DNA of 64,000 nt from Polytrichum commune (lineage: Eukaryota > Streptophyta > Polytrichopsida > Polytrichales > Polytrichaceae). Of this stretch, positions 1 through 40,590 are shown one piece after another (the first letter of the stretch is position 1; each line of letters opens with the position of its first letter). Under the pieces are notes generated by a model. It was not told the DNA's origin. It saw only the letters and a list, made by a program, of their open reading frames with translations, and did not search any database. The stretch lies in NCBI GenBank assembly GCA_950295325.1, contig OX485809.1, positions 9,610,001 through 9,674,000 of the forward strand, in the 5' to 3' direction. Both the position numbers and the translations under genes were made by a program.

Positions 1-285
1 TTTTAAGCCTACTATATCCACTGGCATGGTCCAACGGGTTTTCCGTTGGGAGGGGCAAAAGAGGTGGTCCTGGAAAAACAGTCAGGGGCCCATGGCAGAA
101 AAATGCCAAAATAAATTTTTTAATAAAATTTTATTGTCCGCTGCAGGTTACTGTTAAAACGGATTAACGGTTTAATTTCAGGGCACAATGAAAAGGCCGT
201 TATATGAAGGATTTGTCATTTCTCTTTCTTGCAACATAGTGATAGAGTGATAGATTTTTTTTCGCAAAATTTTTTTTCCGCAGAA

Positions 286-1792
286 ATGGAAGGATACTTT
301 GTTGATGAGGAAGCACGTAGAGAGTCACAAGGAGAGTGGTCACAAAATTCAGAGTGGATGCAACGAGTGTCAAATCAAAATTTCAGAGAGAATCAAAATT
401 CGATTTCACGAATGTTGCAAGGTCCGAATGTGCTCCCCAACACTTTTAGTGTATTTCATCCTCCTCCACTTCTGAACATGACAAATTACAGACAAGGAGG
501 ACAGTTAGATAGTCATCATGTTATAGAAGAAATGTTTGAAGAAAAAGAGGAAACCGAGGGAGCAGCAAAGAGCCAACTAGCAGGAAAAAAGAGGGGGCGT
601 GTTACAAAAGAATCAACAAAGAAGATGAAGAAAGGCGACAAGAGGAATACAATCGAAATTGGCGAATCGGAAGAAGAAGAAGAAGAAATTAGCAGAATCA
701 AATGGAAGGATTTTGAAGTGCATCACCTGATAGCAATTCGCGGGGAGATGGAGGAAGAATTCACAAAAACAGCAAACAAGCAAGGTAATATGTTTTTCAA
801 TTTTTTTTGTAATTTGATTTTTGGTAAAAGGTAAATGTGGTAAAAGGTAGATGTGGTAAATGTGGTAAAAAGTAAATGTGGTAAAAGGTAAATATGGTAA
901 AAGGTAAAAGATAAAAGGTAAGCGTATGATGTTGGCCGTATGATGGGCCCGTAGAGGCCTTAGCCTTAGCCTTAGCCTTAGCCTTAGCCTTAGCCTTAGC
1001 CTTAGCCTTAGCCTTAGCCTTAGCCGTAAGCCGTAAGCCCCTATGCCCCCCCTCCCCCCATAGTCGGGCGGCCGCTGCCGCGGGGGCTTCGAGTTTTGTT
1101 ACTGTATTTAGTAAAAGTTTGTCAAGGTCGGGAATGGAACCCGCGTCTCCTCTATCCTAAACCTCTATCCTTACCACTACGTTACACTCCCTACTTCGAT
1201 ACCAATGACGTCGCTTATGTCCTTATACTACACTTCAACTATGCTGAATTTTTTTTTTCAGGGTCAATTTCAACATCTTTTAGCTTCTGGTTTGGAGTTT
1301 TTAATGTGTTTTCCTGTTGCTACTGTAGGTACCAACTCTTGGCTCAAATTGCAGATTCGAATGGTCGCTGCAATCAAAGGTTTCAACCGTTCCTGGTTAT
1401 CGTGCAAAAAAAAATACAAAACCATCTTAAGTGAATACAGAACTGACAAGAGAGCAAATGAAATTTCAGGCAGTGATAGAAAACAAGAATGCAAGTGGTT
1501 TACAGAGATGGATCAATGGTATGATAGTAGGGCCAGTGTTCACAATGAAATTCCTGCTAGTGCTACAGAATCTTGGGCAGAAGATAATATTCCTTCTACC
1601 CCTACACCGTCTCAGACAACAACTTCTGCACCGCCAACACAAGAGAAGAAAAAGAAGACACAAGAGAAGATTGAAAATCTTCTAGAACAGGTTGTAGGAA
1701 ATTCAGGGGCACTTCTTGCTTCATTCCAAGAATCTACTGCTATCCTCAAGAATATGGATAAGAATTTTGCAGCTCTTATAGCTAAATTCTAG
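286..1792 (+). CDS. Harbinger ORF1, Myb/SANT-like DNA-binding protein (2 exons)
   Basis: The exons are 286-784 and 1329-1792, giving 320 residues. The intron 785-1328 has GT and AG ends, and splicing joins CAAG to GTACC so that the SANT-like domain is restored: KWKDFEVHHL in exon 1 continues into NSWLKLQIRM and GFNRSWLSCKKKYKTI in exon 2. The upstream in-frame codons lack an ATG; the first ATG is at 286 (MEGYF). Exon 1 ends with a basic patch (KKRGRV) and an acidic run (ESEEEEEE). The C-terminus is a likely helical or coiled segment (about EKIENLLEQVVGN onward). In this superfamily ORF1 binds subterminal DNA and works with the transposase in the nucleus. It is still open here although its partner is broken. 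Confidence 0.8.
955..1026. repeat. CCTTAG hexanucleotide array in ORF1 intron
   Basis: About eleven head-to-tail copies of CCTTAG decay at the right end into CCGTAAG units. Just upstream (about 829-920) is another imperfect array of GGTAAA(A/T)GT-type units. Both lie inside the ORF1 intron. The hexamer is not the plant telomere unit TTTAGGG. Confidence 0.9.
1115..1205 (-). repeat. Possible tRNA-derived SINE fragment
   Basis: Read on the minus strand there is an A-box-like stretch (TAACGTAGTGGTAAGG) followed about 40 bases later by a B-box-like GGTTCCATTCC, close to the polymerase III consensus GGTTCRANNCC. No cloverleaf can be drawn, so it is not a tRNA gene. A SINE remnant is the simplest reading; chance similarity is possible. 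Confidence 0.35.
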
Positions 1793-1794
1793 AT

Positions 1795-3189
1795 TTAATC
1801 ACTATCACTATCAGTTTCCATAATACTAGATTTCTGCCGTAGTTTGTATTGCCACAAACTTTCTGCCAATGTTTCGTGCATCGTTGTAGCTTCCCGCAGA
1901 AGGTCATTAGCCTTCTCATTTTCTCTCAATAAAAATAAATTTGTCTCTTCATCATTTTCTTCATCTGCAATTGGCATATCTTCCCTAGCTAATATCCTTC
2001 TTCGCACTTCCGCAATTCCAGCTCTTTCTCCTCGTAATTCACTGCCTTCTCCTACTTCACCCTCGCTAATTCTTCTAGATAATTTATTTTCTGCTTCAAT
2101 AATCCAATCTTCTTCTATACCTTCGTTATTGACAATGCATATATTGTGCAATACTATACAAGTTGCTACAATATCAGGCATATTCCTCAAAGGTACCTCA
2201 GATCGTTTCATTATCAATCTCTATCTGCCCTTTAAAATCCCGAACGCCCTCTCTACGCACATCCTCGTCGAAGATTATATGAAATTCCAATTTTCCTCTT
2301 TCCCGGATAACGCTGTTTTTCCACCCTTAAATGGACAATACATCCAAGGTCGTACCGGATATGCCGCATCTCTTATCAACTTGTAAGGCTGGAATTTACC
2401 CTCAATACAAGCTCGTCCAATTTTTGTCACTTGAAATACTGCCCAATCGTGAAGACTCCCTGCCCACCCAAACTCATAATCCCAAAACATGCAATCAGGT
2501 CCAACAATTCCCTGTAAAATCGCTGAATGAAATGACTTCCTACATTAATAATCTTCTCCCCCGAGTATAGGAGCTAAAACAGGAATATGTGATCCATTTA
2601 TCGCACCTATAATGTAAGGTATTCCGTGCAACTTTTCGAACTTTGAAGCTAAAACCCTAAACTGTGATTCACTTGGAGTTTGCACGAAAATTGGTTGAAG
2701 ATGCTTTCTTACGGCTCTGCAAAATTCTCTCACTATTATAGATATTGTGCTTTTATGTACTCCATACAAATCACCTATTGTTTGCAATCCATCACCACTA
2801 CCCAACCGATGCAATGACATCGCTATCCTCTCTTGCACCGGTACCGAAACCCTAAAACGAGTATCCTCTTTCTTCAAATAAGGACCCAACCTCTCACACA
2901 AGAACCTAAATGTCGTATATGTCACTCGCGTTCGTTTTCTAAATTCTTTCTCCGTCCACGAACCTAATAGCAACCGGTCCACAAAACCTAACATCCTCTC
3001 TTGACTCCATATGTTCCTCTCTTTACGTCCAATGCTTTCGTAAACCACGCTCAAAATTGCAAATTTTTCCCATTCTCCTTGCAAAATCAGTGTTTGAATG
3101 CCTACAACATTCTTCACAAGCATGTACAAAAATATGTACAATCCTAGTAGCACAACTAGCTTCCTCCTCCTCTCTTCCATTTCGACCAT
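1795..3189 (-). pseudogene. PIF/Harbinger transposase, inactivated by three stop codons
   Basis: A single reading frame of 465 triplets runs the full length expected for the family. It has an N-terminal region, a helix-turn-helix near residues 134-160 (LYGVHKSTISIIV), the first-D block (PYIIGAINGSHIPV), the second-D block (WAGSLHDWAVF, 71-residue open stretch 2490-2278), the E block (MCVERAFGILKG, Glu codon 2251-2253) and the C-terminal MPDIVATCIVLHNICI. Stops interrupt it at 2545-2547, 2275-2277 and 2221-2223, all in the same frame. The first catalytic Asp (family motif GAIDG) is Asn at 2596-2598. The lesions are point changes with no frameshift, so the decay looks recent. The family acts as a nuclear cut-and-paste DDE transposase with ORF1. 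Confidence 0.9.
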
Positions 3190-3525
3190 ACTTGCTGAAT
3201 TTTAAGGCGAAAAGAAGAAAAACCTAAGTGAGAAGATAAGTGAAGGCATGTGTAGACAAGTGAAGTCAACAAAATGGTCAAACTTTGTTTTTTACTAAAA
3301 CTGCCCTTTTTGGGCTTTATATTAAAAAAATCAGCACATCCACTCCTTGCCGCATGGTCATTCCTCTTGGTCCACATTCGGTTTACACCTAGTGAGGGGC
3401 CCAACGGCTTTGTAAATCAAATTTTTAATAACTCGGACCATGAAATGTAGACCATGAACTCGTACCAAGGAATAAGGCATCTTCCGTGGGACGAGTTCAT
3501 GGTCTATGGTGTAAACCGCCCCTAA

Positions 3526-24298: not shown

Positions 24299-26761
24299 AT
24301 GGAGAATGGCATGGAGCATGTTGATGACACAGGGCAGAGTATTGAGTACGACATTGTGCCTGCAGCGAGGCTGGAGATTGATTTGAAGATTGAGAGGGAG
24401 GGAGAGGGAGTGGATATGGCAGAGGAAGCTGCCACGATGGAGAGACGGCATCATAACACGGTGGTGGTGGTGGAGGAGCTAGGAAGCAGTGAAGGGATGA
24501 ACAATCCTGAGGAGCAGGATGTAGAGGATGGGGGAGAGAATGGGAACATGATCGATCCGAGGAGGAGTGGGCATCATCATCGGGATGGAATGTTCATGAT
24601 GGAGCAGAAGCATGGGATTGTGATGAGACGGGATATGCATTCGGGAGCTGAACCGAGGGAACCTGGTGGGGCGATGATGATGGATGAGGAGCCGATGAAT
24701 ATGGATGATGATGCCCCGACAACACCCACGGGACCTGCAGGTGGAGATTTGGACAGGAAAGACCGGATGTATAAGAAAGGCCCATGGAGTGTCACGGAAA
24801 TGTTAGTTTTGCAATCTGCGAAGAAGGAAGATGTGGTGAGGGCTGGTAAAGGTGCCCCCCGGGATAAACACAGGACTGCTCAGGAGAAGTGGCAGTCTAT
24901 TGAGGATTACTGTTGGTCACATCTTGTCCAGCGTAGTGCTCAGCAGTGCCAGGATAAATGGGAGTCAATGAGCGCGGAGTTCAAGAAGGTGAAGGACTAT
25001 GAAAGTGGAACATTGCAAGGTCAAAAATCATATTGGCAAATGACTATCGATGAACGGAAGGGCGTTCGTGTCCCTCCTAATTTCCAGAAGGAGGTTTATC
25101 AGGCATTGCTGGAGTGGTACGACAAGAACCGGATTATTGAACCAGGTTACTACTACGATGTCTACTTATCTTCGTGTTTCTTCTGTGCAAAGAATTTTGG
25201 GGAAATCCAGTTTCGAGCATGGAATGCATTCTTCCCATTCATGTCGCCTGGCCAAAATTTTACCTACTAGGGGTTTTATTTTATTTTACAAATATGGTAT
25301 TTATGTGTCTATGATTAAGCATGGGTTATTATTGGCGTTAGTAATCAAACCGTTCATACTGCTGACAAGGGTATTTAGAGATGACTAATTGGCAGCCGAT
25401 CCAATCCAGGAGCATAATTGCTGATTAATTTGTGCTCGATTCCTCGAGGGCATCATCACCTTGACCCTCTTCAGTATGTCCAATAAAAGATTGGACAGAC
25501 AAGGGTGGCTGGTTCTGGCTATAGAGGGTTTAGAGAAACCCAGCCTCTTTCATCCTATTACTGACTTTTTAATCTTCTAGGAGGATGTCGTCTTGTTATT
25601 TTTTGATCAAAAGCACAAGGTTTCTCTGGAGCACTTGAGTATAATGTATGCTCATTCAACATGTTCATGGTTTGTCGCAATATCATTTATCTGCATTGGA
25701 AGTAGCATCTTTTCAAAAGTGAGGTCTTCCGAATTTGACGGAAGTGATTTTATTTCACGATATTTACACAGACCTTTTCAAACTGGCATTTCTCAAATCT
25801 GCGTCAACAGTATTGTAGCACAAGTTCCACCAAGAGTCGCACTCATTCTACCAACTCATCTGCTTAAACTGGAGCTGAGAAGCAAGCAATAACATGCCTC
25901 CAGTTAGAATCCTCTTCACAATCCGCCTACCTGCCAGAGCATGTTCTAAATGCATGAGGGGATTTGTCATTTATATTTTGCAAGATATTTTGGCTGCCTA
26001 GCCATTGGTCTTGTCTAGGTTTAGGTGAGTGTTGGGCAGGTATTAAATTGGCACCAAACCCCTGCAGGTTATCGTGGTGGTTCTTTAAATTTATAACTGT
26101 GGTTCTCAAATTTTCAATTAACTGGACTTGACTCATAACCGTGGTTTTCAGAAAATCAAAACCCAGTCAAATAACCTTCTAAAAAACCTCCAGCTCTTTG
26201 CTGGTTCTTTCATGAAAACCGCCAGATCTTTGGATTTTTTAAAATATCCGTGACCAGAGGTTCTTTTATTGTAAAAACTCTCAACCTTGGAACCGAAGGT
26301 TTTTTGCTTCTAATTGGCTTCAAAACTGATACCAGAGGTTATTAGAAAAATCAAATACCCCCCTAACACTAGTTTAGACTCAGCTCTGATGCAAGTATAT
26401 TGCTATGTTGCAGGTACAGCCATGGTTCTGACCAGCGTTACAAAAGTTGAAGATATTAAAGTGCAGTCACCTATTGCTGTTGGATCATCCTCACCGACAG
26501 GAACTGTTGCACAATCAAGAAAGCGAGCAAATGAACGCACAGTGGCTCGGGTTCCTCGGAAAATTTCTCGGTCGGAGGGTGTCTCGGTACCAACAAATTT
26601 GGATCCTCGATTAATGTCACTAGGTGAATTTTTTCGTACCTATCAGCAGTTATTCCACTTGTGCAACCTGTATTCCTTTGTCAACCAGTGTTATGAAAGT
26701 CTGAGTCATATTCTTGATTGCAGTCTTGCATGGACTTTCAACAGAATGTGAGCAAGGAGAG
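24299..26761 (+). CDS. Trihelix (GT-type, Myb/SANT-like) DNA-binding protein
   Basis: Exons are 24299-25145, 26414-26623 and 26724-26761; phases match (EPG-TAMVL and MSL-VLHGL). Residues 1-155 are acidic and Met-rich. Residues 160-273 form the trihelix fold: GPWSVTEMLVL, then a basic loop, EKWQSIEDYC, QQCQDKWESMSAEFKKVKDYE, SYWQMTIDERK and FQKEVYQALLEW, with the tryptophans at about 163, 198 and 221 that mark the three helices. Exon 2 adds a basic, NLS-like stretch (QSRKRANERTVARVPRK). The layout resembles ASR3/At4g31270-type plant factors, which act in the nucleus. The end is unclear: exon 3 has a strong donor (GAG/GTAAGC) and may continue into the hydrolase, or be read through to a stop near 26809. 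In-frame ATGs also exist at 24221 and 24248; 24299 has the best context. Confidence 0.75.
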
Positions 26762-29212
26762 GTAAGCACTCAGATATCCCATATCCTAGTTGATAATTAT
26801 CTTTAACATGGTGAAAATGATCTACGGGCAAGTCTTATTTCTGATACGTTAATTGATCTAGGTTTGTTGGAGTCTGATGAGACATTTTCACATTATGTGG
26901 GCAATACGAACATTTTCTCTTCTTGGCAATTCATTTTGAAGGTGCTGTTAAAGGAGGCTTGTCTGTTGCATGGTGCACTATTTGAGTCTTGGGCTATCAA
27001 TTACAACTAATTCAATATTCATGTGTTTCTGTATGTGTGCTCCAAGACAGCCGAAAGAGAAGCATATGCTATTTTTGATCTAGGAGATTTTGTTTTAAAA
27101 GAAGGTGCAACTTTAAGAGGGGCCAAACTGGCTTACAAGACCTGGGGCACAATGAATGAAGATCGCAGCAATGTGATTATGTACCCATCTTGGTTTTCAG
27201 GCAGGCATTGGGAGAATGATTGGCTTATAGGGCCTGGCATGGGTCTGGACCCTTGCAAATATTTCATTATTGTTCCAAATATGCTCGGCAATGGTCTCTC
27301 CACTTCTCCAAGCAACTGTCCACCTCCCTACAACAAGGCTCGATTCCCTAAGGTCTAGTCTCTCTCCACTATCTTACAATCAGGCTTAGCCTGAGTCTGA
27401 CAGACCAGTCTGGTCTAAGGTGTTAATTGACTGGTTGATAGCAGCAAATGCAAGTTTGTATTAATTCCAGAACTTGTATCACAACCTCATCATGAACATC
27501 AAACCATGGTTGGAGGAGTTTGTGTGCTATAACGATTATAATCACCAGTTTTAATATGGAGTGCAATTCATAGCCCTTTCGCTTCTGGTTTTTATGTAGA
27601 AGTTTGTTTACAGATTCTTTGAGTGTCTAACTGGTAAGCACGTATCCTTACACATGCAGTTTAATGCAGGTTAGGGTTGAGGACAATGTTCGAGCCCAGT
27701 ACAAGTTGGTGACTGAGAAATTTGGGATTCGAAAGCTCAAGCTGGTGATTGGTTGGGCAATGGGTGCTGGGCAGGCCTTCCAGTGGGCCGTCAGCTTTCC
27801 TGATATGGTGGAGCGCATTCTCCCTTTCTGTGGCTCAGCACGCACCAGCCCACACAATGTGGTAAGTTTTGTGGAGGAATCTGAAGTAACTTGCAATTTT
27901 GCTGCAACATTTAAAATAATGTCACTTGTGATCCACACCGATGACAACGTTGGTACCACATGATGTATGAACAAGATATTTAGATTCTTTGACTTCATAA
28001 TATACCTTATTTTGAGCACTTATTCGCCTGTGAATCTGTAGAACACAGGTGAAATTTTAGGCAGAAGATCCAGGAGACTCCTTTCTCACTCCTTTTGGAA
28101 ATTTAGATAGTCCGAGAGGCTGAGGCAGGTCATACTGTCGCAGTCTATGTATTGTGATGCTGCTGTTGTACAGATCAGCATGTATTTGTACTCACCTTTC
28201 TGTACTTTTGCATTACAGGTTTTCCTAGAAGGTGTCAAAGGAGCTTTGACAGCTGACAGTCTATGTCAAGATGGCTGGTACGAAAAGGTTCCGTATAAAG
28301 GTCTTCGTGCAGCTGCTCGGGTTTATGCAGGCTGGGGTTTTTCACAATCATTCTACTGGAATGAGGTGAGCTATTGTCATGATGCAGACATTTTGAAGTA
28401 TCAATCACTAGTCAAAATACCAACCCACAAGTTGCAAAACTTGCACCAATTTCTAGCTCACAGTATTTCTGATAGTAAATGTTTATGGAGGTCACACCAA
28501 TTATTAAATAACTGAGAATTGTGACACCAATCCATATTCTAGTACTGCGATGATTATGTTTCTATGTATTGAAATCTTTTTTCTGGTTGTGATGTCATAA
28601 TGGTACTTTGAATGCTAGATTATTAGCATAATAGTCGCACCAATCAGGTGTGACTATGGGAAATCACATCAATTAATAGGGTGTTGTAATTAAAACTTCA
28701 CACTCTGTACACAAATCTTCAGGCCATCACCAAAGAAGAATGTAGAAAGAAGACATAACAATACTACAAGAGGTTTATCTTATCTAGTTCCATTACATTC
28801 AGGACCATTTTGATATCCTTGTTGTATTGTTCAGGTGTGGCGGGAGATGGGTTACTCAAGTTTGGAGGATTTCTTGGTAGGATTTTGGGAAGGATTCTTT
28901 TTGGATCGTAGAGATCCCAACAATCTCTTAAGTATGTTATGGACATGGCAAAATGGGAACATTGGCCTGACGGAAGGTTTTGATGGTAGTGTGGAAAAGG
29001 CTCTGGCTTCCATCCGAGCCAAGGCAATTGTCATGCCAGCTCAACAGGATCTCTTCTTCCCAGTCTGTGATGAAGAGTATGAGGTGAAGTTTATGCAAAA
29101 TGCTGAACTCCGAATTATTCCGGGTGTCTGGGGTCACTTTGCAGGGGCCGGCCTGAATGCTGTGGACACCAAATTTATTGACAATGCAGTGCGGGACCTT
29201 TTGTCCATGTAA
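26730..29212 (+). CDS. MetX-like alpha/beta hydrolase, catalytic Ser replaced by Ala
   Basis: Exons: first exon uncertain (26730-26761), then 27047 or 27058-27352, 27670-27861, 28219-28365, 28835-29212, about 347 residues, the usual length of the homoserine O-acetyltransferase-like family. Recognisable blocks are LAYKTWGTMNEDRSNVIMYP, GLDPCKYFIIVPNMLGNGLS, the nucleophile elbow GWAMGAGQAFQWA, PFCGSARTSPHN, FLEGVKGALTADS, WQNGNIG, PAQQDLFFP (Asp, 29048-29050) and WGHFAGAG (His, 29135-29137). The family elbow is GWSMG; here the Ser codon is GCA (27757-27759), so the acyl-enzyme route should be blocked. The frame at 27023 has no ATG. A start at 26730 (MDFQQNVSKER) with an acceptor at 27057 fits, as does fusion to the trihelix exon through the acceptor at 27046. 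A soluble protein is likely; no transit peptide is evident. Plants do not use acetyl-homoserine for methionine, so its role is unknown. Confidence 0.8.
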
Positions 29213-33524: not shown

Positions 33525-34057
<533 letters not shown>

Positions 34058-38150: not shown

Positions 38151-40590
38151 TAGCCCGCACCAAGAAGTGTGGGTGGGCTATCATACCATGCCTATACACT
38201 AGTGCGAGAGTTTACCTAACGTAACGTGTATCTAATTGATTATTAGTTATCTTTGCAATCTCTAATTCCAACTAGACTCTATTATGTGTAAGACCATAGG
38301 ACTCCAGCCCGGGAGATCAAGTAATTTTAAATGGTAAAGGGGAGTTACCCACTAGTCGGGGCCTTGGTGTTTACACAATGTTCTCATCTCGTAAGTAACG
38401 ACCATTGGTTAAGAGCGCTAACCTCACTCCAAAGGCATGGAGGGAGAACCAACTAACTTGTTGCTTGAGGACTAGTTGAGGGGAGCTTCAACTCCGAGTT
38501 CCTTCAAGTACACATGCTTTGCAATACCTAACAATTGGGTAATAAGATGGTCTACATTGTAGTGTTTGTCGTGCTTCCAAGGTGGGATGGATCATGCCTC
38601 TCATTTCCTCTATGCTTTTGAGAGAGATTATATTGGTACCAAAGCTCCAAGCTCTTGTACCTTGGTGTTTTGAGTGTTGTTATTTTTCCGCTGCATAACA
38701 TTTGTGTTTCAAGTTGGGGAGATAATTAGAGTTATTTCACAAAGGAAGGGAATGAGTATGTTGCTTTCTAAAGTATAGGGAGTAGAATTTTGTTTTGTTT
38801 TGTTTTAAGAGAGGCAAGAGGAGCGCTTAAGGCAAGTGCCCTAAATTATTTCAACATGCATTGTAATTGAAAAGTCCAATGTATTTGGAACTTGTTCATT
38901 AATTCTTCCCTCATTGGAGGATTTGCATAGTCAAAAAGAGGTATCCTATGATATCAATGCATGTTTTGTTGTTGGAAAACATAAGGCAAAGTACCTTAAG
39001 AAAAAAATTACAAGGTTTAAATCGTTGCATCAATTTGAATATAATTCAAAACTATGGCAAATATATATGGTTGACGCCATGCCACACCATTTGAATAAGC
39101 TCACTCTATCATCTCAATTGATGATAAACTTCTCGGGGCAAGTAATGCATCATGATGCATTTGTTTTAATGGAGACAAACGTTACATCCAATGAGGTTAT
39201 TGTGAGTAGCACCAAACAATCCTATACTGATAGCAGTGAAATTTTGGAAAGAGAAACACTTTCCTTATCAAGAGGGAGTCCTCCTACTATCCAAGTCCAA
39301 CAGGTGGCCCTAGTGTGGGCATGGTATCAACTCCATCCAAATGTTATGTGAGTCCAAGAATAATTCATGCATTATGCCTCCATTATTATGTAATGCTCCA
39401 TGATTTATGTAGATTCGGGTTGTGCACTATAGAGAAGGGAGACAAAATCACCGGCAATTGTGTGCATGAATGCCCACCTGCTTGAGAGGGTGGACTTCTA
39501 CATTGGCTTACTAGTGTAGTGATACAAAATATGGACCAAAAACATTGTTTTTGGGATGTGGATATCCATAAACACTCTCACGCCCAATTGCAAGGTAGAA
39601 AATAAAATAAGAGATATGCAATCTTGCACACGAAGACGCTAGCTAATCACTTGAGATGCTTCTAGTGCAAGAAATTCAAAGGTCCACCTAACCCGCTCCA
39701 CCTCTCCGGATTCTTTCTCAAATTGAGAATATGCACAAAGTAGTGAATCGAAGTTAAGATCAAATGTGATGGGGTGACCTGGGGGTGGACCCTTCACGCC
39801 ATGTGTGAACTAATGTGAGTGTAGAAAGGGGTACTATTTGAGGCATCATCATACATTGTATACATATAATAGAGGCATTGTTTCTCTTCAGTTTGTGCAT
39901 TTAAGAAGGCTATTTAGAATATTGAAACGAAGGTGGATGTAAAAAAAAAAAGGCTTCCTAAGGTTTGGAGATAGAATTGACAGTAGATGTGCTAGTTTCA
40001 TCCAATTCACATTCCTCATCCAAATGATGTGTGTTTTAAGGTTCGATTCCTATGAGTTACAGCCTATGAATGACAAATTGTACAACAACTTTCACGTTGG
40101 AAAGGCACAACAAATTGTATATGTAACAAAAGACCTATTTACTTTGTAATTTATACTTCATGTATACAATGGACGCGTTTATCGCATTAAAATGTAAAAA
40201 AAACTTAATGTACATACACAAATCCATTTTCTAGCTCACCATTAGTAAGTATACATTTGTTTTTCCTTTATACCGGATCCACCACTCACCAAGGGAGATC
40301 GGGACATAGTTGTGGACCCGGTTTGCTAGCTACGTGAGGGTTTTGATTAGTCACTTTCCCTTAATCAAAGCATGTTGCCATACTTAGAAAACGGACCACA
40401 GCAATGGGGTTGAGTGAAGTTATGCACGGGTATTCAACATGGAGATTATTAACAATGATCGGATCGGGAACTCCTCCATAATTTGTGGAACTACACCTTC
40501 TCACCTATCATTATGGCTTCACCATATCACGATCACTATGGCTTGTGTAGCTTTGATTGATCCATGTCATTTTTGAGCCCACATTGTTAT
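38151..40590. other. Gene-free region
   Basis: An open stretch at 38914-39351 starts with TTG, not ATG, and has no motif I recognise. Otherwise AT-rich sequence with short homopolymer runs. Nothing else supportable. Confidence 0.4.

Follow-up and report, generated by a model that had tools for sequence, protein, structure and literature searches.

Plant RNase J (At5g63420) carries a metallo-beta-lactamase domain together with a GT-1 trihelix domain (PMC7154860, PMC4195496), and the BZR1-BAM transcription factors BAM7 and BAM8 have beta-amylase domains for which an origin in the eukaryotic host is given (PMC6394054). The gibberellin receptor GID1 has an alpha/beta-hydrolase fold and is believed to have evolved into a ligand receptor with the loss of a catalytic residue (PMC3531792). 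In arthropods, contiguous transcripts were demonstrated for 36 of the 41 chimeras tested that arose through horizontal gene transfer (HGT; PMC13389597), and YAN/AltYAN, at a haemerythrin locus, is a dual-coding moss gene (PMC5908804). Here we describe a locus of Polytrichum commune, lying within a 64-kb stretch of contig OX485809.1 (hereafter the window, meaning the whole of the DNA analysed), at which the gene for a trihelix transcription factor probably continues into a hydrolase with close bacterial relatives to form a single trihelix-hydrolase fusion.

The hydrolase and the missing C-terminal exon

The predicted exons, in window coordinates and with a slash marking the splice site, are as follows.

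24299-25145, + strand: exon 1, encoding an acidic N-terminus and the trihelix (Myb/SANT-like) DNA-binding domain; donor CAG/GTTACT, phase 1
26414-26623, + strand: exon 2, linker of 70 codons that includes a basic stretch, SRKRANERTVARVPRK; both boundaries in phase 1
26724-26761, + strand: exon 3, optional, 38 bases; donor GAG/GTAAGC, phase 0
27047-27352, + strand: exon 4, start of the hydrolase; candidate acceptors giving exon starts at 27047 (AAG), 27051 (ACAG) and 27058 (AAAG)
27670-27861, + strand: exon 5, with the nucleophile elbow GWAMGAGQ; codon 27757-27759 is Ala, Ser in bacterial relatives
28219-28365, + strand: exon 6, hydrolase
28835-29212, + strand: exon 7, end of the hydrolase and stop; conserved Asp (residue 287) and His (residue 316)

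The trihelix domain was confirmed against PF13837 (7.4e-12, 45.9 bits against a cut-off of 27), and a profile search identified the downstream domain as an alpha/beta-hydrolase (PF00561, 8.9e-9). The hydrolase is complete, scoring 520.2 bits against NF005757 (PRK07581; cut-off 332) over residues 5-339, and so passes the cut-off of this PRK07581/MetX-like subfamily across the entire domain, whereas that of the MetX equivalog TIGR01392 was not reached (141.4 versus 500 bits). Its 340 codons are spread over four exons with GT-AG introns and contain no stop or frameshift. Two solved relatives, 5d6o and 5e4y, were named homoserine O-acetyltransferase by their depositors.

Judging from these frames and from related genes, we consider it probable that a complete MetX-like alpha/beta-hydrolase domain, bacterial in origin, took the place of the original C-terminal exon of a trihelix transcription factor. 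We favour this reading because the C-terminal exon of the trihelix paralogues is absent from the window and the hydrolase stands in its place; because phase 1 is continuous from the donor of the trihelix exon through exon 2 to acceptor 27051; because the hydrolase starts where its bacterial relatives do, yet without a start Met; and because exon 2 is coding-like in the fusion frame while the read-on from exon 1 is not.

Own-genome searches covered 408 Mb in 64 contigs and returned 83 trihelix matches, the window's own included. Six of these were taken with wide flanks (L125-L130, the five closest and the seventh by E-value), and L096 (the sixth) and L094 came from an earlier set of 20. The closest paralogues, in E-value order, are L125 (57% identity), L126 (53%), L127 (44%), L128 (53%), L129 (38%), L096 (41%) and L130 (42%). 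Each of L125-L130 carries, downstream of the trihelix exon, a further exon encoding a basic stretch and a long charged helix. A model of this C-terminal exon, built from L125-L128 and L130, recovered L129, which had been held out, at 1.9e-34 and L096 only at 0.0098: the exon is clearly present in six of these seven paralogues and weakly matched in the other. Against the six frames of the 64-kb window the model gave no match (best E = 3), and the hydrolase occupies the position that the exon holds in the paralogues.

Splice phase agrees with this arrangement. A phase-1 donor follows the trihelix exon in L125, L127 and L128 (donors picked by eye), and the first CAG or TAG at the opening of the C-terminal frame gives phase 1 in 6/6 paralogues, a count that says nothing on acceptor type as only these two triplets were sought. 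Phase 1 is likewise found in the window gene at donor 25145, at either end of exon 2 and at acceptor 27051. Among the paralogues, L129 (C3:49386000-49395500), which is similar to L127, has one in-frame TAA inside its DNA-binding domain and an open C-terminal exon, and is possibly a young pseudogene.

Bacterial relatives of the hydrolase, 80 of which were kept from the 171 found in a scan of genome contigs, are 59-74% identical to it over the best segment. For the tree and the count of invariant positions, 79 of these 80 bacterial proteins passed the filter, and among these bacterial rows the window hydrolase grouped with 29 Actinomycetota rows (support 100/97). A scan of viral contigs for the hydrolase found nothing, and the own-genome search found hydrolase exons at this locus only. 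These relationships suggest that the hydrolase is most likely an acquired gene; bacterium-to-plant transfer would be the simplest reading, although we infer the direction, and the gene may instead have passed through an intermediate fungal or algal donor.

N-termini were read for 40 of the 80 bacterial loci; 38 of them have a candidate start codon (ATG, GTG or TTG) placed 2-7 residues ahead of the first aromatic/His core position, and L026 and L030 have no clear start. The window hydrolase begins at the same place, but without a start Met. Upstream of the core its frame can be read back no further than 27011 and contains no ATG, as a preliminary description of this DNA had also reported, and an upstream exon (or a non-ATG start) is therefore needed. 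A hydrolase beginning in its own exon was ruled out, as there is no in-frame ATG from 27011.

Splice joins and competing gene models

Twelve exon combinations were translated, of which seven run in frame into the hydrolase and five meet an early stop. Joining exons 1 and 2 to 27051, and so skipping exon 3, keeps the frame and yields 691 residues; adding exon 3 and entering at 27047 gives a single open frame of 705. Without exon 2, exon 1 is in frame either directly to 27051 (621 residues) or through exon 3 to 27047 (635 residues). Translation from ATG 26422 in exon 2 is in frame through 27051 (406 residues) and through exon 3 and 27047 (420 residues), as is the join from ATG 26730 to 27058 (347 residues). 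Exons 1, 2 and 3 joined to 27051 run to a stop, leaving a trihelix protein of 375 residues.

Plant acceptors prefer C or T before AG, and the hydrolase acceptors fixed by homology are CAG in 3/3 cases. We consider 26623 to 27051 the likeliest join, since this preference favours CAG over AAG, and the main protein would then be the 691-residue fusion lacking the 38-base exon. Acceptor 27051 (ACAG/CC), which is absent from the preliminary description, reaches the hydrolase frame from exon 2 or directly from exon 1. That account had carried the trihelix frame through 26724-26761 and its phase-0 donor in frame to 27047, and the frame is indeed open for 705 residues. Its proposed fusion of about 700 residues is supported by the lost C-terminal exon, by the phases and by the missing hydrolase start, but 26761 to 27047 (AAG) is probably not the main route, because the join from 26623 to 27051 keeps the frame with a CAG acceptor and can do without exon 3. 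Inclusion of the 38-base exon would need the AAG acceptor 27047 to make a fusion, of 705 residues, and would otherwise give the short, bare trihelix form of 375 residues through 27051.

Codon scores bear on where the trihelix gene ends. Exon 2 is coding-like in the fusion frame, with none of 46 open control windows scoring equally high; exon 1 scores positive in frame, and the read-on past 25145 to the stop at 25270 scores negative; exon 3 is too short to judge. A trihelix protein ending at 25270, considered as the simplest model, was rejected because this read-on scores non-coding.

That result bears equally on the presence of two separate genes, which we regard as unlikely. The trihelix would then end early, at the stop at 25270 or after exon 2 or 3, and a hydrolase promoter within 25146-26413 would serve a start at ATG 26422, making exon 2 an N-terminal extension of a hydrolase of 406 residues (via 27051) or 420 residues (via exon 3 and 27047). 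ATG 26422, in a GCCATGG context, keeps the frame along either route, there is an AATAAA at 25482, and exon 2 is unlike the next exon of the paralogues. However, besides the non-coding score of the extension to 25270, the trihelix protein would be left without the C-terminal part that its close paralogues retain, and donor 25145 and acceptor 26414 are both phase 1, as read in those paralogues.

Several observations weigh against the fusion. The ATG at 26422 is in a strong context and could start a separate hydrolase, and the scanned interval 25271-27046 offers other pairs of ATG and donor, such as ATG 25644 or 25648 paired with donor 25718, that could likewise be spliced in frame to the hydrolase. 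The chance that one join agrees in phase is one in three. Similarity between exon 2 and the next exon of the paralogues was undetected (2000 shuffles; sum p 0.71, best-score p 0.89), and homology between them was dropped as an argument for fusion; since the two are unlike, the link of exon 2 to the trihelix is carried by frame, phase and codon score. The C-terminal model does not match the more distant paralogue L094 at E 0.01. In the tree, the window branch is long (0.58), and the window protein may lie either inside or beside the Actinomycetota (81/48). Finally, the Ala codon at 27757-27759 could be one base from a Ser codon, and is thus possibly a one-base assembly error.

The preliminary description also offered a different reading, in which two overlapping genes share the 38-base exon in two frames and the hydrolase, of 347 residues, begins at ATG 26730 (within exon 3, in a frame other than that of the trihelix) and continues through the exon start at 27058. 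This frame proved open, as both are, and exon 3 has a higher codon score in it than in the trihelix frame (12 codons only). When random 423-nt non-coding stretches were placed in silico before exon 4, 15 of 600 provided an ATG and a donor as strong as 26761 that joined it in frame, so a frame such as 26730/27058 is uncommon yet within the reach of chance; such a join was found in none of the three later introns of the gene, under a laxer donor limit. Acceptor 27058, in contrast, lies 11 bases behind the AAG of 27047 and 7 behind the CAG of 27051, with a purine-rich lead, and the acceptors fixed by homology are all CAG. The extra residues, MDFQQNVSKE, gain nothing against NF005757 (520.2 bits either way) and no more than 1 bit with two other models, and the idea that they are a remnant of the bacterial N-terminus was rejected on the unimproved NF005757 score. 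The locus can be explained without such use of one exon in two frames, which finds little support here and seems to us distinctly improbable.

Active site and putative role of the fused domain

The nucleophile elbow of the window hydrolase reads GWAMG, against GWSMG in 80/80 bacterial loci. The catalytic Ser is replaced by Ala at residue 132 in the assembly, and Asp 287 and His 316 are retained, the triad having been assigned by alignment to MetX-type structures together with general knowledge of the fold. The window hydrolase retains 100 of the 107 positions that are invariant across the 79 bacterial rows. Its seven changes (L36M, T48S, Y50F, E58D, T104R, S132A and Y289F) are mostly conservative; S132A is the nucleophile itself, Y289F lies two residues from Asp 287, and positions 48 and 50 are presumably close to the oxyanion hole. 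In a leave-one-out analysis of the bacteria, 8 of 115 invariant positions were lost in L049 and two or fewer in every other row; seven changes thus exceed those of 78 of the 79 rows, a number that is high for the family but does not amount to decay. Hydrolase activity is doubtful because the nucleophile Ser is Ala, and we predict a domain that is foldable and probably catalytically inactive, most likely no longer able to hydrolyse a substrate.

The same features could belong to a relic or an error, that is, a decaying gene pair or an Ala codon introduced by the assembly, with no functional fused protein made. The lost nucleophile, the hydrolase exon without a start codon, the long branch and the excess of changes at invariant positions would all fit such an origin; against it, 340 codons are open across four exons with GT-AG introns, and 100 of 107 bacterial-invariant positions are retained, with mostly conservative changes at the others. 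We regard it as very unlikely.

Under the favoured fusion, a domain that can fold but is probably inactive, attached to a DNA-binding protein, points to a role in ligand sensing or dimerisation. MetX enzymes are dimers, and the dead hydrolase domain would most likely serve the DNA-binding domain as a ligand-binding and/or dimerising module, replacing the lost helix. More speculatively, and only as a possibility that we hold tentatively, the captured bacterial domain may have lost its nucleophile and become a metabolite receptor joined directly to the DNA-binding domain, with the 38-base exon and tandem acceptors acting as a switch between receptor-bearing and bare forms of the protein. If the fusion is real, a bacterial enzyme domain would have been recruited into a plant transcription factor and have lost its catalytic residue, while the host exon that it replaced can still be seen in sister genes; related species would allow a test of the sequence in which capture, domain replacement, loss of activity and new role followed one another; and a sensor-type regulator would be added to the trihelix family.

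The window has other features, within this gene and elsewhere. Intron 1 holds a stretch of ~350 bases (26010-26390) with imperfect inverted ends, AGTGTTGGGCAGGTATT / AGTGTTAGGGGGGTATT, resembling a small non-autonomous transposon, of which no copy was found among the other own-genome loci fetched. At 208-3201 there is a transposon-like cluster, which we take to resemble a PIF/Harbinger element, with a Myb/SANT-like open reading frame (ORF) at 1115-1792 (+; 7.6e-5, below the cut-off) and another at 2545-3201 (-) that weakly matches a transposase helix-turn-helix (0.0012, below the cut-off). An ORF at 38845-39351 (+) has a weak beta-propeller match (PF24981, 0.0011, below the cut-off), and a frame at 33726-33897 (-) that reads as a long RERERE repeat is a GA/CT-rich simple repeat.

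Comparison with known systems

A trihelix together with homoserine O-acetyltransferase was not found in any paper searched, and among the literature matches listed, judged by title and the opening of the abstract, none names a trihelix-hydrolase fusion. The main text of PMC11228847 mentions neither hydrolase, homoserine nor fusion; homoserine and trihelix are unmentioned in PMC11131428, as are homoserine and gene fusion in PMC12448838.

Set beside the precedents introduced above, the predicted trihelix and hydrolase architecture is matched by none of them, although each shares something with it. YAN/AltYAN offers a moss precedent for two reading frames at one locus, but as a single dual-coding gene rather than a short exon common to two genes. 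The arthropod HGT-chimeras unite host sequence with horizontally acquired sequence in a single reading frame, as the predicted fusion would; they are animal genes backed by transcripts, whereas here in-frame joins into a hydrolase with bacterial relatives are observed in the DNA and several alternative joins are open. Plant RNase J, like the putative fusion, has a bacterial-type hydrolase domain and a trihelix domain within one land-plant protein, but with another fold, in the reverse order (its trihelix is C-terminal) and as an active chloroplast RNase. BAM7 and BAM8 resemble the putative fusion in attaching a DNA-binding domain to an inactive domain of sugar-hydrolase type, and differ in fold and in using BZR1 rather than a trihelix. 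GID1, a relative of hormone-sensitive lipase, has lost its His and kept its Ser and has no DNA-binding domain fused to it, and shares with the hydrolase described here the alpha/beta-hydrolase fold of a plant protein from which a catalytic residue has been lost.

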